64,000 bases of DNA, taken from NCBI GenBank assembly GCA_016744775.1, contig JADGDS010000004.1:186001-250000 (forward strand), in the 5' to 3' direction. Shown piece by piece: positions 3,415 to 18,130 of this stretch. This DNA comes from Candidatus Marithrix sp. GTDB taxonomy: Bacteria; Pseudomonadota; Gammaproteobacteria; Beggiatoales; Beggiatoaceae. The translations under genes and the position numbers were made by a program. The first letter of the stretch is position 1, and each line of letters starts with the position of its first letter. The notes beneath the pieces were generated by a model. That model was given only the letters and a program-made list of their open reading frames with translations, was not told the origin of the DNA and searched no databases.

Positions 3415-4193
3415 GTTTTTATAAGCCCATCTAATGGAGATGATGCGCTTGCATAACGTTTACGTGGCATACGCCCTGCTATATAAGCTTCATATCCAGC
3501 TTCAATCGCTTTTTTCATTGCTGATGCCATTAAAATTGGTTGTTTAGCTGCTGCGATGGCGGTATTCATTAATACTCCATCACAACCAAGTTCCATTGCT
3601 ATCGCAGCATCTGAAGCAGTGCCAACACCAGCGTCAACTAAAATTGGTACTTGTGCATTTTCGACAATAGTCATAATATTTAAAGGGTTTTGAATCCCTA
3701 AACCAGATCCAATTGGAGCCGCTAGTGGCATAACTGCAACACAACCTAATTCTTCAAAACGCTTTGCAATGATAGGATCATCATTAGTATAAACCATTAC
3801 TTGAAAGTCATCTTTAATTAAAATTTTTGCTGCTTCCAAGCTGGCAGTAATATCTGGATATAGTGTTTTTTGATCACCTAATACTTCAAGTTTGACTAAA
3901 TTATGACCATCAAGTAATTCTCGTGCTAAACGACAAGTGCGTACAGCATCTTCTGCGGTATAACAGCCAGCCGTATTAGGTAATATCGTATATTTATCAG
4001 GTGATATTACTTCTAATAAATTGGGTTCATTCGGCGTTTGACCAATATTGGTGCGTCTAATTGCGACTGTAACAATTTCAGCACCACTGGCTTCAATAGC
4101 AAGCCGTGTTTGTTCTAAGTCTTTATATTTACCAGTTCCTACTAATAAACGTGAATTATAAGTTTTATTTGCTATAGTTAATGTAGTTGACAT
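3411..4193 (-). CDS. thiG: Thiazole synthase ThiG
   Basis: Forms the thiazole phosphate of thiamine from deoxyxylulose 5-phosphate, dehydroglycine and ThiS-thiocarboxylate. Seen are LLVGTGKY near the N-terminus, the AIRRTNIG strand, the Schiff-base lysine in LVKLEVLGD and phosphate-binding [11 protein letters not shown] and [12 protein letters not shown] start at the ATG at 4193 ([10 protein letters not shown]), preceded by AAGGA at proper spacing. A start ten codons upstream would run into a C/G-rich repeat. No thiS lies beside it. thiE and thiD are 50 kb away in this window. Confidence 0.95.
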
Positions 4194-7768: not shown

Positions 7769-10700
7769 ATGGCAAGAAATATAAAAGTTAAAGTTGCAAA
7801 AACTAAACATGGTACCAGAGTACAATCTCCAATGATTGTACATGAATCTTCAATTTTTTCATTTAAAACAGTTTTTTTAATGATTATATTGTTAGGATTA
7901 ATTGTATTAACTCATTTAGAATTAAAAGAACAATTTGTATTAAATAACATTATTGAACCAATTTTATCAGGAAATAAGTCAGTTCCTGAACCAGAAAAAA
8001 TTGAGGTAGCTTCTTCTACTTCAATGGGTTTTAATCAAAGGTTACAATCTGCAATAGATTCAGTTGAAAAAGTGTCTTTAATAGAACCACCAGTTCAAAC
8101 ATTTAAACCAGTAATAATACCAACTCCAACCGCTCAAACTAATGTAAAACCTATAGTAACAGCATCTGCTTCAAATGTAGTAACTAAGTATCATACTGTG
8201 GTTTCAGGAGATATATTATCTAATATTGCAAAAAAATATAAGGTTAATTACAAGGATATGGCAGCTTGGAATAATATTGCTTATCCTTATGCTTTGAAAT
8301 TAGGAGAAAAATTATCAGTTGTTGAACCTCCTAAAACTAAACCAGTTGCTGCTAAAGCTAAACCAACTTATCATATAGTCAAAAGCGGCGATTTTTTAGC
8401 TAAAATTGCAAAACAATATAAAGTCAATTACAAGGATTTAGCGCGTTGGAATAATATTCCTTATCCTTATGCTTTGAAGCTCGAACAAAAATTATTACTT
8501 TCTGAACCACCTAAATCTGAAGAACCAGAACCGGCTCCAGCCGTTGATAAATATCATATAGTAAAAAGCGGTGATTTTTTAGCTAAAATTGCAAAACAAT
8601 ATAAAGTTAATTACAAGGATTTAGCACGTTGGAATAATATTCCTTATCCTTATGCTTTGAAATTAGAACAAAAATTATTGCTTTCTGAACCAGCTAAATC
8701 TGAAGAACCAGAACCGGCTCCAGCCGTTGATAAATATCATATAGTAAAAAGCGGTGATTTTTTAGCTAAAATTGCAAAACAATATAAGCTTAACTATAAT
8801 GATTTAGCGCGTTGGAATAATATTCCTTATCCTTATGCTTTGAAATTAGAACAAAAATTATTGCTTTCTGAACCAGCTAAAACTGAAGAACCAAAACCAA
8901 CTGTGGTTGTAAGTGATAATGATAAAGATGGTATTCCTGATGATAAGGATTTTTGTCCTAATACTACCAGTGAAAATATTATTAAAGGAGTTGATAATAT
9001 GGGTTGTGTTATTCAGCTACCAGCTAAAACTGAAGAACCAGAACCAACTATGGTTGTAAGTGATAATGATAAAGATGGTATTCCTGATGATAAGGATTTT
9101 TGTCCCAATACAACAACTGATGAAATCATTAAAGGAATTGATGATATGGGTTGTGTTATTCAAGTGGAGGAAAAACAAGAAGTAGAAGCAAAGTCATTAG
9201 TTTCTGAAGCTGCCAAAACTGAAACACCAGCAGAAGAAAAAATTCCAGCCGTTGAGAAATATCATATAGTAAAAAGCGGTGATTTTTTAGCTAAAATTGC
9301 AAAACAATATAAAGTCAATTATAAAGACTTAGCGCGTTGGAATAATATACCTTATCCCTACGCTTTGAAACTAGAACAAAAATTATTAGTTTCTGAACCT
9401 CCCAAAAGCGAAGAACCAGAACCAGCTCCAGCTATTGATAAGCATCATATAGTAAAAAGTGGTGATTTTTTAGCTAAAATTGCAAAACAATATAAGGTCA
9501 ATTATAAAGACTTAGCGCGTTGGAATAATATTCCTTATCCTTATGCTTTGAAACTTGGACAAAAATTATTAGTTTCTGAACCTCCAAAAATTGAAGAACC
9601 AGAACCAGAACCAACTCAAATCATTGATAATGATAAAGATGGTGTTCCTGATGATAAAGATTCTTGCCTCAATACCACTACTGATGAAATTATTAAAGGA
9701 GTTGATAATATGGGTTGTGTTATTAAACAAGAACAAACATCAGAACAAACAGCTTATCATATAGTAAAAAGCGGCGATTTTTTAGCTAAAATAGCTAAAC
9801 GTTATGGAATTTCTTATAAAAAGATAGCTCGTTGGAATAATTTACCGCGCCCTTATGCTTTGAAATTAGGACAAAAATTAGTACTTTCTGAACCTATGGA
9901 TAAAGATCAAGATGATGTTCCTGATGATAAAGATCATTGCCCTAACACCACTATTGAAGAAATAGGTAAAGGTGTTGACGCAATGGGTTGCCCTTCTGCT
10001 GCTATTATTCCAAGTAATGAACCATTGTATCATCTTGTAAAAAGAGGTGAAAGTTTATTTAAAATTTCTAGACTTTATAAAATTTCCTATAAAGATCTTG
10101 CTAGTTGGAATAAAATTTCCATATCCTATCCCCTTAAACTTGGTCAAAAATTATTAGTTTCCAAACCTGTAGATTCATTTTTAAGTGTTGATACAGATGA
10201 AGATGGGATTAATGATGATAAAGATCGTTGCCCTAATAATACTGAAGAAGAAGTTATTACAGGAATTGATGAACAAGGTTGTGCTATTAAAATAGATGAT
10301 GATTTTGATTTTTCATTTCCATCTGAAAATAAAAAAAAACTTTCTAAACCAGTAGCAGAAGCCCCGGTATTTAATAGAAAAAAAAACTTATTTTTTCATG
10401 ATCGTTTAAGAGATGGTAGTTTAGGACCAGAAATGGCATGGATACCTGCTGGTTCATTTAAAATGGGTGATTTACAAGGAAGCGGTGATATAGATGAACA
10501 ACCTGTACATGAAGTATCTATTAAACGCTTTGCCAGTTCTCGTTATGAAATAACATTTTCAGATTATGATAAATTTGCAACAGCCACCAGACGAAAAAAA
10601 CCAAATGATGAAAATTGGGGCAGAGGGATTAGACCAGTGATAAATGTTAATTGGGAAGATGCCAGAGCTTATACCAACTGGTTAAGTCGTCAAACTGGAC

Positions 10701-11146
10701 ACAAATACCGTTTACCAACTGAAGCAGAATGGGAATATGCAGCTCGCGCTGGAACTAAAACTAAATATTGGTGGGGAAATAATATTGGGAGTAATAATGC
10801 AACTTGTAATAAATGTAATTCCCAATGGGGCTGGGATGCTCAACATATGACTGCACCAGTAGGTTCTTTTAAACCCAATCCATTTGGATTATATGATACA
10901 GTTGGTAATATTTATGAATGGACTTGTTCTGGATATGGAATAGAATCAAAAACAAAGAAAACAAAATACATACAATACAACGGCAAAGAACAGGTTTGTG
11001 CTGATAGAAAAACGAAAAATAAATTTAGAGTGATTCGTGGTGGGCATTGGTTAAGTGATCCAGAAGATAGTCGTGCCGCACACCGTTTTGAATCTTGGTT
11101 AGGTTATCGTGTTAATTTTATTGGGTTTAGAGTTGTAAGAGAATAA
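7769..11146 (+). CDS. Membrane-anchored LysM/TSP3-repeat protein with C-terminal formylglycine-generating-enzyme-like domain
   Basis: A 1125-residue envelope protein. A short basic N-terminus precedes one membrane helix (about residues 33-50). Then come eight LysM-like peptidoglycan-binding repeats, starting near residues 141, 201, 262, 323, 498, 559, 663 and 754. They are interspersed with five calcium-binding thrombospondin-type-3-like repeats (DNDKDGIPDDKD...C, the first near 383), each ending with a Gly-Cys. From about residue 886 there is an FGE-sulfatase/SUMF1-type domain (MAWIPAGSFKMGD, RLPTEAEWEYAARAG, GLYDTVGNIYEWTC, VIRGGHW). A periplasmic role at the cell wall is inferred. The catalytic state of the FGE domain is unknown. 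The start is divergent from the ABC-F gene with only 33 bp between. Confidence 0.88.
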   Translation: MARNIKVKVAKTKHGTRVQSPMIVHESSIFSFKTVFLMIILLGLIVLTHLELKEQFVLNNIIEPILSGNKSVPEPEKIEVASSTSMGFNQRLQSAIDSVEKVSLIEPPVQTFKPVIIPTPTAQTNVKPIVTASASNVVTKYHTVVSGDILSNIAKKYKVNYKDMAAWNNIAYPYALKLGEKLSVVEPPKTKPVAAKAKPTYHIVKSGDFLAKIAKQYKVNYKDLARWNNIPYPYALKLEQKLLLSEPPKSEEPEPAPAVDKYHIVKSGDFLAKIAKQYKVNYKDLARWNNIPYPYALKLEQKLLLSEPAKSEEPEPAPAVDKYHIVKSGDFLAKIAKQYKLNYNDLARWNNIPYPYALKLEQKLLLSEPAKTEEPKPTVVVSDNDKDGIPDDKDFCPNTTSENIIKGVDNMGCVIQLPAKTEEPEPTMVVSDNDKDGIPDDKDFCPNTTTDEIIKGIDDMGCVIQVEEKQEVEAKSLVSEAAKTETPAEEKIPAVEKYHIVKSGDFLAKIAKQYKVNYKDLARWNNIPYPYALKLEQKLLVSEPPKSEEPEPAPAIDKHHIVKSGDFLAKIAKQYKVNYKDLARWNNIPYPYALKLGQKLLVSEPPKIEEPEPEPTQIIDNDKDGVPDDKDSCLNTTTDEIIKGVDNMGCVIKQEQTSEQTAYHIVKSGDFLAKIAKRYGISYKKIARWNNLPRPYALKLGQKLVLSEPMDKDQDDVPDDKDHCPNTTIEEIGKGVDAMGCPSAAIIPSNEPLYHLVKRGESLFKISRLYKISYKDLASWNKISISYPLKLGQKLLVSKPVDSFLSVDTDEDGINDDKDRCPNNTEEEVITGIDEQGCAIKIDDDFDFSFPSENKKKLSKPVAEAPVFNRKKNLFFHDRLRDGSLGPEMAWIPAGSFKMGDLQGSGDIDEQPVHEVSIKRFASSRYEITFSDYDKFATATRRKKPNDENWGRGIRPVINVNWEDARAYTNWLSRQTGHKYRLPTEAEWEYAARAGTKTKYWWGNNIGSNNATCNKCNSQWGWDAQHMTAPVGSFKPNPFGLYDTVGNIYEWTCSGYGIESKTKKTKYIQYNGKEQVCADRKTKNKFRVIRGGHWLSDPEDSRAAHRFESWLGYRVNFIGFRVVRE
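8369..9900 (+). repeat. In-gene tandem repeats of LysM and TSP3 units
   Basis: LysM units recur with an exact 183-bp period (starts 8369, 8552, 8735; again 9260, 9443) and are nearly identical at DNA level. TSP3 units at 8915, 9062-9063 and about 9625 are likewise near-identical. Such identity implies recent duplication or gene conversion, with possible length variation between cells. Confidence 0.85.
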
Positions 11147-12553: not shown

Positions 12554-12937
12554 ATGCCATTACCAACATTAATAAAATCCGGTTTAAGCACACTATTCAG
12601 CGATATTATAATTGAAAACAGTAGTAAAGCCTTTTCAATCCTTCATGAACACTTTACCTTTAGAGCTGATGAAATCTCTAAAGCTTATCAAGATAGTTAT
12701 GGCTATTCCATTACTGCCATTACCGTAGGTTTGGCTGCTCCTGAGCAGAAATTATTCTTTGTACAAAAGTATCTTTATTCTAAAATAACTCGCGATTTTG
12801 CTGATCCTATTGAGGATAATTATTTTCAGTCTTTTTTACAACAACAAACTCAGAAAGGCGAAGATTTACGCCAACAATTTATAAAGCAATTAAATAAGTT
12901 TATTAAATATAAGGATCAACTTTTTCAATTAAATTAG
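12554..12937 (+). CDS. N-terminal adaptor-like domain of the split kinase gene (5' piece before an in-frame TAG)
   Basis: A 127-codon piece, all helical, without transmembrane segments, beginning MPLPTLIKSGLSTLF. It stops at TAG (12935-12937). The reading frame continues open beyond the stop into the kinase gene, and the duplicate at 17510-18130 has GAG (Glu) at the same position. This is therefore the 5' part of one 868-codon gene broken by a G-to-T nonsense change. The domain resembles effector-associated death-like/adaptor domains that recruit partners in bacterial conflict systems. That naming is inference. The piece could be translated alone, or TAG could be read through at low rate. Confidence 0.7.
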   Translation: MPLPTLIKSGLSTLFSDIIIENSSKAFSILHEHFTFRADEISKAYQDSYGYSITAITVGLAAPEQKLFFVQKYLYSKITRDFADPIEDNYFQSFLQQQTQKGEDLRQQFIKQLNKFIKYKDQLFQLN

Positions 12938-13000
12938 TTTGAAGAGGAAGATTTAGCCGCTCTTATTAATTATCAAGGTTCTCTGGCTATTACTGACACT

Positions 13001-15160
13001 TTGTTAGATGAAATGAGGAAGTTGGCGCCATTGGATGATACTTTAGCCGCTTTTCTCAGTCACAAGGATTTGTTGGGTAAAGCGATCTTGTATTTTTTCC
13101 ACGATATTATTCGTCAAGATGATCGCGTTGCTAAAACTCAAGCCGCTTTGCAACAAGAAGGTTTAATTATATCGGTAAAAAATATCGAAACTGCTATCAA
13201 AACTGCATATGATGATTTTAATCAAGCCGCTGTTTCACAATCAACGCAATTGGTTGAAATAGCCCAGCAGTTGCAAAATTTACAAGCTTGGCAAAGGCGC
13301 AATGAGTTTTTAACTCAATTTAGTCAGCAATTTCCTGCTTGGCGCGAATTATTAAATCATCAAGTTGAACATTTGTTAAATGGCGTTGAACATGTGTTTG
13401 CAAAATTGGAGGAAGTACATGAGGATGTCATAGAAACCAAAGATTTAGCTGAACAAATTTTAGCTCAACTTTCCAAACTGATGGCAAGTCAAAATCTGTC
13501 TTCACAAATTAAGCCACGTGATGAGTTTACTCAGCATAATAGTCGCAGCCTAAAACAGATTGAGGAAGTTGCTTTACAATTTAAACAATTATCCACGAAT
13601 AATCCTGAATATAGCCGCGTCTCCAACATGATGGGTTCTACTCTTTCATCAATCGGCAACTTAGAACAAGCTGAACGTGTTTTTAGAAAAGCTATTGAAA
13701 ATACTAACAATAATGCGGAAAAAGCTTTAGGGCATTTTAATCTATTTAACGTTTACTTACGCCGCCAAACTTATCAACCGGCTTTAGCAGAATTACAAAC
13801 TGCTATTGAGCTAGATTCAGAACGATATGCTTTGCATGATATAAATAAAGGATATTATCCAATTGAACGCCTTTTAGGTGCCGGCGGTATGGGCTGTGTA
13901 CTGTTGTGCAAAAATAAAAATTGTTTGATAAAACAAGAGCGCGTTGTTGTCAAGTGTTTCTGGGAAACGCTTAAAGCTGATATTAATGAAGTCTTTAATG
14001 AGCCATTTAATATGAGTGACATTGCCGGTGATTTTGTACCAAAACCTTTGGATTATGGTTATGCAAATAATGCCAAAGGCGAAAGGGCTTATTTTGTAAC
14101 TGAATATATTGAGGGGGCGATAGATGGTGAAGCATGGCTGGAAAAATATGGTCCAATGGATTTAGAAACCACTTTAGAAGTAGGCTTACAAATCGCCAAA
14201 GGTTTACAATTGGCACATGATAATGGAATTTATCATTTAGACTTAAAACCAGCAAATCTATTATTTAAACAAACTGAATCGGGCATTGATCTTAAGATTA
14301 TTGATTTTGGTTTATCTCAAGTCGCCACATCTTTGAGTGAATTGGGCAAACAAAAAAGTAAAACGGGATTAAGCGTTTTTGGGCAAGCTGTATTAGGAGG
14401 TACTTTGGATTATTCGCCACCAGAACAACAAAGTTTTGCTCGCCACTGTGAACCTGATGCCAAAAATGATGTGTTTGCTTTTGGTGCTACTATGTATCGT
14501 TTATGTACGCAAAAAAGACCACGTCCGTTTAGAGAGCGCGATTTGCCTAATGTGCAAGCCTTGCGTGATTTATTATGTGATTGTGTTGAAGATGAGCGAG
14601 AAAATAGACCCGATTCGGCGCGTGAATTGGTGAGTCAATTAGAAGAAATTGCGGGTAAATCTGATGCTCAAAAACGCCAAGCTGAAATTGCTAAACAAAA
14701 GGCTGAAGAAGAACAGAAAAAACTATCATACCGCTATACAGACAATGGCGATGGCACTGTCACAGATAATAGAACTGGACTGATTTGGCTGAAAAAAGCC
14801 AATTGTTTTGGAAGACATAGTTGGAAAACAGCTATGGAAAGCGCGACCAAATTAGCTGATGGACAATGTGATCTTAGTGATGGTTCAAAAGCGGGTGATT
14901 GGCGTTTGCCTACTAGAGAAGAATGGGAAGCTATGGTGGATGATAGATATAACTATCCTGCACTTTCCAACGCTGCGGGAACAGGTCAGTGGAAGGAAGG
15001 TGATGCGTTCTCGGGCGTGCAGTTGGACAAGTACTGGTCGTCTTCGTCCTGCGCGAATGGCTCGGCCTTCGCTTGGAACGTGCCCCTCACCAGCAGCAAC
15101 GTGGACAACGGCAACAAGACGGTCACGCACTATGTGTGGCCAGTGAGAGGCGGAGTGTGA
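13001..15160 (+). CDS. Ser/Thr protein kinase with TPR-like N-part and C-terminal DUF1566 lectin-like domain (3' piece of the split gene)
   Basis: A helical part with NPEYSRVSNMMGSTLSSIGN and TPR-like pairs (about 13590-13830) precedes a Hanks-type kinase. The kinase has the glycine loop LLGAGGMGCV, VVVKCFW, the catalytic loop YHLDLKPANLL, DFG in IIDFGLS and GGTLDYSPPEQ. The usual HRD arginine is Leu. A Lys/Glu-rich linker leads into DUF1566 (YTDNGDGTVTDNRTGLIWL, GDWRLPTREEWEAMVD, YWSSS, final VWPVRGG), a C-type-lectin-like fold. From about 14974 the DNA jumps to about 60% GC with NNC codons, as in variable regions of diversity-generating retroelements. The start at 13001 is only the first Met after the nonsense codon and lacks a convincing ribosome site. 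The original start is 12554. Confidence 0.82.
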   Translation: MLDEMRKLAPLDDTLAAFLSHKDLLGKAILYFFHDIIRQDDRVAKTQAALQQEGLIISVKNIETAIKTAYDDFNQAAVSQSTQLVEIAQQLQNLQAWQRRNEFLTQFSQQFPAWRELLNHQVEHLLNGVEHVFAKLEEVHEDVIETKDLAEQILAQLSKLMASQNLSSQIKPRDEFTQHNSRSLKQIEEVALQFKQLSTNNPEYSRVSNMMGSTLSSIGNLEQAERVFRKAIENTNNNAEKALGHFNLFNVYLRRQTYQPALAELQTAIELDSERYALHDINKGYYPIERLLGAGGMGCVLLCKNKNCLIKQERVVVKCFWETLKADINEVFNEPFNMSDIAGDFVPKPLDYGYANNAKGERAYFVTEYIEGAIDGEAWLEKYGPMDLETTLEVGLQIAKGLQLAHDNGIYHLDLKPANLLFKQTESGIDLKIIDFGLSQVATSLSELGKQKSKTGLSVFGQAVLGGTLDYSPPEQQSFARHCEPDAKNDVFAFGATMYRLCTQKRPRPFRERDLPNVQALRDLLCDCVEDERENRPDSARELVSQLEEIAGKSDAQKRQAEIAKQKAEEEQKKLSYRYTDNGDGTVTDNRTGLIWLKKANCFGRHSWKTAMESATKLADGQCDLSDGSKAGDWRLPTREEWEAMVDDRYNYPALSNAAGTGQWKEGDAFSGVQLDKYWSSSSCANGSAFAWNVPLTSSNVDNGNKTVTHYVWPVRGGV
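14974..15157 (+). other. Candidate diversity-generating-retroelement variable region (VR)
   Basis: The last ~180 bp of the kinase/DUF1566 gene. Hand counts give 35/60 G+C in 15001-15060 and 37/60 in 15061-15120, against roughly a third in neighbouring DNA. From TGGTCGTCTTCG onward about half of the codons are NNC (TCC, TGC, GCC, TTC, CCC, ACC, AGC, GAC, AAC, GTC, CAC). That is the pattern expected when AAC codons of a template repeat are mutated at adenines. The 3' end is conserved-looking VWPVRGG, and a 9-bp hairpin follows 16 bp after the stop. No reverse transcriptase or template repeat is in the window, so it would have to act in trans. Confidence 0.7.
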
Positions 15161-15176
15161 CCCGTTTAATGCAAAA

Positions 15177-15199
15177 GCAACCCATTGTTTATGGGTTGC
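15177..15199. other. Hairpin immediately downstream of the candidate VR
   Basis: GCAACCCAT (15177-15185), loop TGTTT, ATGGGTTGC (15191-15199): a perfect 9-bp stem. Hairpin/cruciform elements just 3' of the VR are known target-site features of some diversity-generating retroelements. There is no T-run, so a terminator role is less likely. Confidence 0.6.
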
Positions 15200-15360
15200 G
15201 TGGCATTAGAACCTGCTAGACATAGCATGTTTAACTTAGGATATAAGGGAGATGAAAATCCTCCACTCTACATACAAGAGTAAGCCAATACCCCTAGTCA
15301 CTTTAAGAATTGTCTGCTTAATAGGCTAAAGCGGGGTGTAATGTAGCCAATAACTGGTTA
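15200..15360. other. Non-coding stretch with several possible stems, unassigned
   Basis: It is richer in GC than the flanks and has no reading frame of note. Short stems can be drawn (GGAG-ATGAAAATC-CTCC, CTC-TACATACAA-GAG, CCCC...GGGG across 15288-15335). It could be a structured RNA or a relic of a retroelement or intron. I cannot identify it. Confidence 0.3.
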
Positions 15361-15510
15361 TTTTCTCGTTCCCACGTTCCAGCGTGGGAACGCATGTGTC
15401 GGCGCTCCAGCGCCGAGTCATAGTAAAAATACTTGACGCTGGAGCGTCTGTACATGCATTAGCTTCGCTGACTTAGTATCCCACGCTGGAGCGTGGGAAC
15501 GAGAGAAAAA
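15361..15510. repeat. GTTCCCACG...CGTGGGAACG palindromic repeat cluster
   Basis: Outer arms TTCTCGTTCCCACG (15363) and CGTGGGAACGAGAGAA (15492) frame further palindromes built on CGTTCCAGCG, GCGCTCCAGCGCC and GACGCTGGAGCGTC. This type of REP-like array is non-coding and dispersed in many gammaproteobacteria. Confidence 0.8.
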
Positions 15511-15553: not shown

Positions 15554-15681
15554 GTTACGCACAACTTTTCTATCTGTGATATATCCTGTAGGTTGGGCTG
15601 ACGAAAGGAAGCCCAACAAATTCACAATTCTTCCACGATTCGTTGGGCTTCCTTTCGTCAGCCCAACCTACAATGCGTAAC
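15554..15681. repeat. MITE-like element with 31-bp perfect inverted repeats
   Basis: The arms at 15587-15617 and 15642-15672, built on TTGGGCTGACGAAAGGAAGC, are exact reverse complements around a 24-bp spacer. They are flanked by GTTACGC (15554) and GCGTAAC (15675). A single diverged arm lies at 18126-18158, where it cuts the duplicated adaptor gene. No transposase is present. Confidence 0.8.
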
Positions 15682-15797: not shown

Positions 15798-16898
15798 ATG
15801 AAACCTAAAAAACTAATCAAAAAACTAAAACTAAAAAATTTTCTATCCTATGGAAGTCAAGGAGAAGAGATTGAATTAGAAGCACTTAATGTCTTAATTG
15901 GTCCTAATGGTTCAGGTAAATCTAATTTCATTGAAGCCATTAGACTGATTAAGGCTATACCAAATGATTTTATGGTTCCAATTCGTCAGGGTGGTGGAAT
16001 TAATGAATTTCTTTTCAAAGGTACAAACGACATACCTACAGCAACACTTGATGTTATCTTAGATGAAGATGGGCATGATTATCAAATTTGTTTCACCGGC
16101 GCGAATCAAAGAGTTGAAATATTAAAAGAAATTATTGCTCAAACCGAAATTAATAAACAATATCATCTAGCCTCAGACCAATCCGTTATTGCTAAAGGAC
16201 TTAATCCTAATATCCCCGAAGTTAAAGAACTGCTTGTCAATCAAGAATTGTTCTTTCTAAAAAATAAATTTTCTGACATTGGAATTTATCGCAATTGGTA
16301 CTTGGGTCAAGCTTCAGCACTAAGAAAACCTCAACATACTGATTTACCAGAACATCCTCTTGAAGAAGATGGTAGTAATATTGGTCTGGTATTAAATAAC
16401 TTACAATACCAATTACCAAGTCAACAGATTTTACAACAATTTCAAAAATTCTATCATAATGTCGAAGAACTGAATATAAAAATTCAGGGAGGTACAGCAC
16501 AAATATTTATCCGTGAACAAGGTTTTAGTCAACCTATTCCAGCACCTCGTTTATCTGATGGAACATTACATTATTTATTTTTAATGGCTCTACTGCTTGA
16601 TCCTAATCCATATCCACTATTATGTATAGAAGAACCAGAACTGGGTTTGCATCCAGATATTTTACCAATTATTGCTGACATGTTAATTGAGGCATCACAA
16701 AGAACACAATTAATTGTTACAACCCATTCAGATATTTTAATATCAGCCTTATCCCCAGAATCAGTAGTAATTTGTGAACGAGATGATGAAGGTAGCCACT
16801 TGCGTCGTCTTGATCCAGAACAACTAAAAGAATGGCTATCCAATTATACTATTGGCGATCTTTGGTTAATGGGTGAAATCGGGGGAAGACAATGGTAA
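15798..16898 (+). CDS. AAA ATPase of the AAA_21/RecF-like class
   Basis: A 366-aa SMC/ABC-type ATPase of the kind found in phage-defence and toxin-like pairs. Walker A is GPNGSGKSN (about residue 34), preceded by LKLKNFLSYG. The ABC-signature-like RLSDGTLHYLFL lies near 255, Walker B IEEPELGLHP near 275 and the switch histidine in TTHSDILIS near 310. Its last codons overlap the DUF4276 gene by 7 nt. A TATAAT box (15748-15753) lies upstream. The pair probably works as one unit, with the ATPase sensing or gating the partner. That is inferred from related ATPase-TOPRIM pairs. Confidence 0.88.
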   Translation: MKPKKLIKKLKLKNFLSYGSQGEEIELEALNVLIGPNGSGKSNFIEAIRLIKAIPNDFMVPIRQGGGINEFLFKGTNDIPTATLDVILDEDGHDYQICFTGANQRVEILKEIIAQTEINKQYHLASDQSVIAKGLNPNIPEVKELLVNQELFFLKNKFSDIGIYRNWYLGQASALRKPQHTDLPEHPLEEDGSNIGLVLNNLQYQLPSQQILQQFQKFYHNVEELNIKIQGGTAQIFIREQGFSQPIPAPRLSDGTLHYLFLMALLLDPNPYPLLCIEEPELGLHPDILPIIADMLIEASQRTQLIVTTHSDILISALSPESVVICERDDEGSHLRRLDPEQLKEWLSNYTIGDLWLMGEIGGRQW

Positions 16899-17509
16899 AA
16901 GAAATTCGTATTTATATTGAGGGAGGTGGAAGTACTAAAAATACCAAATTATTGATACATCAAGGATTTAGTAAATTTTTTCGCGAATTAGCTCAAAAAG
17001 CAAGCAGCAAAAAAATAAGCTGGAAAATTATTTTATGTGGACCTCGTAACAATGCTTTTAGAGACTTCAAACTAGCTTTAAAAACACATCGAAAGGCATT
17101 TAATATATTACTAGTTGATGCTGAAGCATCTGTTATCAATAAGAAGGCTTGTCAACATCTTCAGAATCTTGAGAAATGGAATTTAGCCAATCTTGATGAT
17201 GATCAATGCCAGTTAATGGTACAAACTATGGAAGCTTGGTTAATTGCTGATATAAATGCTCTTAAAAAATTTTATGGACAAGGATTTAAAGAGAAATCAA
17301 TACCTAAAAATCCAAATGTAGAACAAATTGATAAACAGCAACTAGAACCGAGTTTAAAAGCAGCTACTCGTAAAACCAGCAAAGGAGAATATCATAAAAT
17401 ACAACATGCTTCCAAACTATTAGCATTATTAAATGTAGATAAAGTACGAGCAGCAGCACCACATTGTGATCGTATTTTTAAAGTTATCAATAAAATAATA
17501 GGTGGATAA
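16892..17509 (+). CDS. DUF4276 family protein (TOPRIM-like partner of the ATPase)
   Basis: 205 aa. The N-terminus IRIYIEGGGSTKNTKLLIHQGF carries the conserved glutamate-glycine motif, and NILLVDAEA supplies acidic residues of a TOPRIM-like metal site. MVQTMEAWLIADINALKKFYG is characteristic of DUF4276, and the end is Lys/His rich (TSKGEYHKIQHASKLL). The function is not established. TOPRIM partners of such ATPases act as nucleases in several defence systems, so an antiphage or toxin role is inferred. It is translationally coupled to the ATPase gene. Directly after its TAA the frame runs on into a truncated adaptor-gene copy. Confidence 0.8.
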   Translation: MVKEIRIYIEGGGSTKNTKLLIHQGFSKFFRELAQKASSKKISWKIILCGPRNNAFRDFKLALKTHRKAFNILLVDAEASVINKKACQHLQNLEKWNLANLDDDQCQLMVQTMEAWLIADINALKKFYGQGFKEKSIPKNPNVEQIDKQQLEPSLKAATRKTSKGEYHKIQHASKLLALLNVDKVRAAAPHCDRIFKVINKIIGG

Positions 17510-18130
17510 ATTTTAATATTAGGCGATATTCTAACTGATAACACTGATAAAGCCTTATCAATCCTTGAAGAACACTTTACCTTTAGAGCTGATGAAATCT
17601 CTAAAGCTTATCAAGATAGTTATGGTTATTCCATTACTGCCATCACCGTAGGTTTGGCTGCTCCTGAGCAGAAATTACTTTTTGTACAAAAATTTCTTCA
17701 TTCTAAAGTCACTCGCGATTTTGCTGATCCTATTGAGGATAATTATTTTCAGCCTTTTATACAACAACAAACTCAGAAAGGCGAAGATTTACGCCAACAA
17801 TTTATAAAGGAATTAAATAAATTTATTAAATATAAGGATCAGCTTTTTCAATTAAATGAGTTTGAAGAGCAAGATTTAGCCGCTCTTATTAATTATCATG
17901 GTTCTGTCGCTATCACTGATTTGCTGTTAGAAGAAATGCAGCAGTTCGCAACTGTGGATGAGAGTTTAGCGGCTTTTTTTTGTCAAAAGGATTTGTTGGG
18001 TAAAGCTATTTTGTATTTTTTCCATGATATTATTCGTAAAGATGATCGCGTTGCTAAAACTCAAGCGGCTTTGCAACAAGAAGGTTTAATAATATCGGTA
18101 AAAAATATCGAAACTGCTATATTTTTGTAG
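17510..18130 (+). pseudogene. Truncated second copy of the adaptor/kinase gene 5' region
   Basis: DNA and protein closely match 12606-13198 (roughly nine bases in ten by eye): SILEEHFTFRADEISKAYQDS, DFADPIEDNYFQ, QQQTQKGEDLRQQFIKELNKF, FEEQDLAALIN, DLLGKAILYFFHDIIRKDDR. The first 15 codons with the ATG are missing. The match ends at 18120, exactly where MITE-like sequence begins, and a stop follows. No kinase follows. Position 17849-17851 is GAG where the first copy has TAG. Confidence 0.82.

Follow-up and report, generated by a model that had tools for sequence, protein, structure and literature searches.

Architecture of the kinase-lectin gene

The window, i.e., the whole stretch of DNA analyzed here (64,000 nucleotides of a Candidatus Marithrix sp. 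contig, JADGDS010000004.1, assembly GCA_016744775.1), contains a bacterial kinase-lectin gene on the forward strand at 12554-15160 (Table 1). Its reading frame is divided by an in-frame TAG, which had been missed in a preliminary description of this DNA and which separates the N-terminal 127 aa from the remainder. At this codon none of 29 aligned relatives and paralogs has a stop, the commonest residues being Q and E, and no ATG start was found immediately 3′ of the TAG in the downstream frame. The TAG might be an assembly error. At 17654-18130, the N-terminal part of the gene is duplicated in truncated form, with E at the equivalent codon.

Profile searches with the downstream frame yielded matches to Pkinase (4e-26) and Lcl_C (7e-21), and the encoded protein ends with VWPVRGGV. 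The lectin domain was modeled by AlphaFold with a pLDDT of 94.8. The best PDB match of this model was the C-terminal domain of Legionella Lcl (E 1e-4), with weaker matches to eukaryotic C-type lectins; the domain is accordingly a ligand-binding scaffold of the C-type-lectin kind found in DGR targets. The same genome also contains an intact kinase paralog of 895 aa (L252 1118-3805, on contig C3), in which the kinase is joined to an FGE-type lectin with a decayed variable region (VR), so that one kinase type bears two different variable lectin types within this genome. Directly downstream of the kinase-lectin gene, at 15798-17509, lies an AAA_21 ATPase and DUF4276 pair that matches HEC-01A/HEC-01B (PADLOC; 479 and 268 bits), a candidate defense system, and the gene therefore stands in a defense-like neighborhood.

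Table 1. Features at the kinase-lectin locus, in positions of the window.
Feature	Position	Strand	Remarks
N-terminal piece of the kinase-lectin gene, 127 aa	12554..12937	+	ended by in-frame TAG 12935-12937
Open frame with TPR-like region, Ser/Thr kinase and Lcl_C/DUF1566 C-type lectin, 740 codons	12938..15160	+	
Protein kinase domain	13862..14638	+	PF00069, residues 309-567; motifs VVVK, HLDLKPAN and DFG all present
Lcl_C (DUF1566) C-type-lectin-like domain	14753..15148	+	profile match, fold model, structure match
DGR variable region (VR)	14999..15154	+	hypervariable codons from about 15023 to 15130; VR homology, alignment, codon entropy
Conserved VR 3′ end TATGTGTGGCCAGTGAGAGGCGGA, likely initiation-of-mutagenic-homing segment	15131..15154	+	conserved alignment columns; role presumed
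GGCGGA, the 6 nt before the intron junction (putative IBS1)	15149..15154	+	complementary to EBS1 UCCGCC
5′ remnant of group II intron, 205 nt, beginning GTGTGACCCG...	15155..15359	+	94% identical to the start of the longer copy in a congener (G027)
9-bp inverted repeat (hairpin)	15177..15199	+	within the intron remnant; noted in the preliminary description
MITE-like palindromic repeat TTTTCTCGTTCCCA...GGGAACGAGAGAAAA	15358..15510	.	starts where the intron remnant ends

A DGR-type variable region at the 3′ end of the gene

Within the frame 12938-15160, the GC content per 60 bp remains at 0.27-0.45 until about position 14977, and the last three blocks have values of 0.57, 0.65, and 0.58. The corresponding GC3 values are 0.70-0.85 in these three blocks vs. 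0.10-0.45 upstream. DNA searches of 43 genomes from the same family, to which an order-level search added none beyond the family, identified about 70 homologous VRs of the VWPVRGG type in 19 of these genomes. Among the 35 ungapped full-length VRs, the 17 codons assigned as AAC-derived showed a mean entropy of 1.65 bits at both position 1 and position 2 and of 0.70 bits at position 3 (Wilcoxon p about 1e-5), the third position being nearly fixed as C. For codons lacking a template adenine, the values at the three positions were 0.36, 0.25, and 0.64 bits, respectively. All four bases occur at the mutable positions, A being the commonest. Ordinary coding drift changes codons mostly at position 3, and adenine-directed mutagenesis of AAC codons results in the opposite.

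Since the AAC codons were assigned from the VR family itself, independent support comes from another locus, L217 (JAAELQ010000248.1), a GTDB metagenome-assembled genome (MAG) contig that was found with a pattern for the predicted template. It contains a target whose product ends with VWPVRGGQ, small accessory-like ORFs, a template repeat (TR), and, starting directly after the TR, a reverse transcriptase (RT) frame of the IGNLT type. VR and TR of this locus differ at 19 of 48 adenines and at only 1 of 103 other positions. When the VR of the window was compared with this foreign TR, 21 of 46 adenine and 16 of 92 non-adenine positions were found to be different (p = 5e-4). A TR of the VWPVRGG type was found in L217 only. 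By sequence comparison, the match shows that VRs of this type are made by a DGR; it does not say which DGR made the one in the window.

The sharp GC step within an AT-rich gene might also be explained by ordinary recombination, by which a 3′ end would have been imported from a GC-rich organism without any DGR, and it is in line with such an import that the one template found for VRs of this type sits in a GC-rich MAG. However, transfer does not yield variation at codon positions 1 and 2 next to a third position that is nearly fixed as C, and the L217 template and its own VR are, with one exception, mismatched at adenines only. In addition, the gene at 7769-11146 in the same window, which encodes an FGE-type lectin, was found to be without such a pattern on reading its sequence. 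We therefore regard an import as extremely improbable. Taken from the comparative evidence, the kinase-lectin gene ends in a genuine DGR variable region of ~150 bp, in which substitutions concentrate at the positions of template adenines. This VR differs from the family consensus at 3 of 75 fixed non-adenine columns, which is among the fewest of the family, and thus it has probably been rewritten recently.

These results bear out much of the preliminary description, which had reported a GC jump with a 3′ end rich in NNC codons in an AT-rich gene, an adenine-templated VR of the DGR type, a DUF1566/C-type-lectin fold, and the fusion of a kinase to this variable lectin. It had also named variation at other than template adenines as evidence against a DGR, and the comparative variation does concentrate at these adenines.

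Lcl_C genes elsewhere in the genome (C4:2941-3783, C4:298612, and C3:8713) were considered as carriers of VRs of the same type, and remained unmatched in the VR searches. The gene at 7769-11146 encodes a LysM-repeat protein with an FGE-sulfatase domain, for which no DGR signature was seen by eye, in contrast to the VR of the kinase-lectin gene.

The sequence following the variable region

The 9-bp inverted repeat behind the VR had been interpreted in the preliminary description as the hairpin of a DGR target site, and VWPVRGG as the end of the protein. Both are present in the sequence; nevertheless, the hairpin turned out to be part of the 5′ stump of a group II intron and not a target-site feature that directly follows the VR, and the final V together with the stop codon is derived from the intron as well (GTG TGA, with the TGA at 15158-15160). 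The native end of the protein in the family is GGQ followed by a stop, encoded by intron-free VR ends that read GGCGGACAATAG.

The identity of the intron follows from a longer copy in the congener G027 (L116 1934-3782), which lies 3′ of a VR in a different, secreted-looking protein. This copy contains domains V and VI at 3706-3782 (RF00029, 58.5 bits), which are absent from the truncated copy of the window, and a decayed ORF for an intron-encoded RT (IEP), of which the window has none. The 5′ exon/intron junction of this intron lineage reads GGCGGA/GTGTGACCCGTTTAATGC. At its 3′ end, L116 reads TTTAAT/CAATAGATACTTTGA with a clean exon junction, in agreement with the 5′ GTGYG and 3′ AY ends of group II introns, its first bases being mutated to ATGTG where the other copies have GTGTG. 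The copy in the window is without an intron 3′ end. Removal of the L116 intron joins GGA to CAATAGATACTTTGA, which gives GGA/CAATAG, as at intron-free VR ends. Judged from these alignments, intron identity and exact junction are shown for the stump in the window. The rest of the intron is lost at the MITE-like repeat that starts where the stump ends.

Alternatively, the sequence after the VR could be an element belonging to the DGR, such as a target-site hairpin or a regulatory RNA. It follows VRs exclusively, it forms a stable hairpin, and two further VRs carry only its first 13 nt, all of which would fit such an element. On the other hand, the L116 copy runs into a decayed intron ORF and domains V and VI, its junction restores the native VR end, and 44 VRs end natively without this sequence, so that we consider a DGR-associated element very unlikely. 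The 3′ flank of these 44 VRs differs from that of the intron-bearing ones, and in 11 of them a GGGG...CCCC repeat was found 20-49 nt after the VR.

Palindromic MITE-like repeats are present at 15358-15510 and 15587-15672, and those of the TCTCGTTCCCA type also follow VRs in related genomes (L153, L174, L137, and L175). A search of the window with Rfam yielded only palindromes that match miRNA models below the cut-off, namely the MITE-like repeat.

Target specificity of the intron

A query consisting of the initial 627 nt of the intron retrieved five sizeable copies from the 43 genomes, located in the window and in G027, G029, G030, and G033. All five are located at VR ends and share the same junction, of which a few bases have been lost in G033. 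The host genes differ in architecture: according to fold names assigned by eye, their products are kinase-lectins and secreted proteins as well as one caspase-like and one fibronectin-like fusion. Searches of the plasmid records yielded no match to the 5′ part of the intron.

A putative EBS1, UCCGCC, was identified at intron nt 339 in L116 and at nt 337 in another copy (L154). It is complementary to the GGCGGA preceding the junction; the stump in the window ends upstream of this position. A match of 6 nt would arise by chance about 0.15 times in 630 nt, but the position of the motif is plausible, and one of two computed folds places it in a loop. No EBS2/IBS2 pairing was found with the motifs tried. 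Each of these pieces is modest singly; taken together, they make homing to VR ends the best reading of the sequence data, with EBS1 pairing as its presumed means. It thus appears somewhat more probable than the contrary that a group II intron lineage has specialized on DGR targets, its guide recognizing the constant 3′ end of the VRs, and that one retroelement parasitizes the sites of another. In the literature searched, which comprised open-licence papers only, no report of group II introns at DGR VR ends was found.

Search for the reverse transcriptase and the template

The assembly of the Candidatus Marithrix genome (G000) is 98.4% complete and consists of 11 contigs. A search with the RVT_1 profile detected no DGR RT in it; the only two matches are group II intron RTs of 611-631 aa with a QGG-type motif and a C-terminal HNH region. 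Likewise, DNA searches of the assembly with the VR, the gene end, and the inferred template revealed no TR, so that both components are absent from the assembly that carries the VR. Nor was a template for VRs of the VWPVRGG type found in any of the 43 family genomes, despite their ~70 VRs of this kind, and searches of 50,697 phage and 72,556 plasmid records gave no match either. Exact-pattern matches from IMG/VR were rejected as template since they belong to other lectin types.

In the congener G027, a DGR composed of an RT carrying IGNLTSQ, an FGE-type TR, and a target is set between two flanking genes. These genes adjoin in G000 (C11:89204-89288, about 84 bp apart, 93% identity), and the DGR cassette is therefore absent at the syntenic site. 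Because its template is of the FGE type, the G027 DGR was rejected as source of the VR in the window. G000 does contain six FGE-type VR matches without a template, two of which differ from the G027 TR at 14 of 28 and 20 of 28 adenines and at 5 of 88 and 7 of 88 other positions, respectively. Hence, VRs of two template types are present in the genome, and machinery is present for neither. DGRs with RT, template, and VRs, of the FGE and DUF1566 types, are found in four family genomes (L145, L146, L147, and L149).

The preliminary description had assumed that the VR is diversified in trans at present, and it had named the lack of a near-identical template in the genome as an outcome speaking against its interpretation; with no template and only the two group II intron RTs in the assembly, this part of it is not supported. 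The RT or the template might possibly be located on an unbinned plasmid or in an assembly gap, and a VR still active in trans, served from a plasmid, a phage, or a gap outside the assembly, would agree with its low decay (3 of 75 departures), which argues for machinery acting not long ago, and with the good preservation of two of the six FGE-type VRs. The ~70 same-type VRs without a template in the family would also hint at a carrier that is systematically missed; their distribution is equally compatible with a mobile carrier outside the sampled genomes and with repeated loss. Against present activity stand the lack of a DGR RT in a 98.4% complete assembly, the empty site of the congener's DGR, the lack of a template match among the phage and plasmid records, and the stop codon in the target gene. 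Present activity in trans is thus unlikely, although it retains a real chance, and we judge the VR of the window to be an orphan, recently diversified and not demonstrably active.

Proposed history of the locus

The explanation that we prefer, and consider probable, is that of an orphan DGR variable region whose machinery was lost or only transiently present, frozen in a gene interrupted by a stop codon and followed by an intron stump at its end. According to this explanation, an AAC-rich template RNA would have been reverse-transcribed with random bases placed opposite the template adenines, and the product pasted into the ligand-binding segment of the lectin, so that each lineage would bear a different binding face on what may be a kinase-coupled sensor. 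As the genome contains neither RT nor template, the last rewriting of the VR would be due to machinery since lost or only transiently carried, and the VR would now persist as a frozen variant.

A DGR would keep the 3′ end constant across all its VRs because it needs this segment to start homing. Constant VR ends would thereby offer a repeated and conserved site for the intron in the final codons of many genes, at which an insertion is nearly costless. A mobile group II intron whose EBS1 guide loop base-pairs with the invariant final nucleotides of the VR may then have inserted between the GGA and CAA codons. Since the intron brought its own in-frame stop (GTG TGA), the insertion would have changed one residue only, and a later deletion together with the MITE-like repeat would have removed the remainder of the intron.

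The locus illustrates how misleading a hypermutation signature together with a hairpin can be when seen in a single genome: the VR is real, the hairpin belongs to another retroelement, and the machinery is missing. It also provides a testable case of a group II intron that homes to the invariant end of DGR target sites. If true, VR ends would be a landing site that is present in multiple copies, always preserved, and nearly harmless, as it lies at the last codon and the intron supplies the stop. Finally, the many same-type target genes across the family, with a template in no sampled genome, raise the question where the template resides.

Comparison with known systems

Remote DGR targets that combine a kinase with a CLec domain are known from cyanobacteria (Vallota-Eastman et al., 2020; PMC7517822). 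As in the window, a C-terminal CLec VR is fused there to a Ser/Thr kinase, and the targets are scattered away from the RT. The cyanobacterial template and RT are, however, present in the same genome, whereas here neither was found, and the VR is followed by the stump of a group II intron.

CLec sensors in conflict systems have been described for Thiohalocapsa PB-PSB1 (Dore et al., 2024; PMC10907252). CLec sensors, multicellular gammaproteobacteria, incomplete loci, targets in trans, and MITE-like repeats that degrade parts of DGRs are common to both cases, and a kinase is among the target domains listed for that organism. In contrast to the present genome, every class in Thiohalocapsa PB-PSB1 has one complete locus left in the genome. 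That study does not use the term group II intron.

In the target site of the BPP-1 DGR (Guo et al., 2011; PMC3240598), too, the constant 3′ segment of the VR precedes an inverted repeat. There, the hairpin belongs to the target itself and is found within the first 24 bp downstream of the VR, whereas the one described here is that of the inserted intron. Numerous group II introns encoding RT and HNH regions have been found in a sulfur bacterium, Ca. Thiomargarita nelsonii (Flood et al., 2016; PMC4853749). Compared to these, the intron lineage of this study was seen only at the ends of DGR VRs, with a putative EBS1 that matches the constant VR end.
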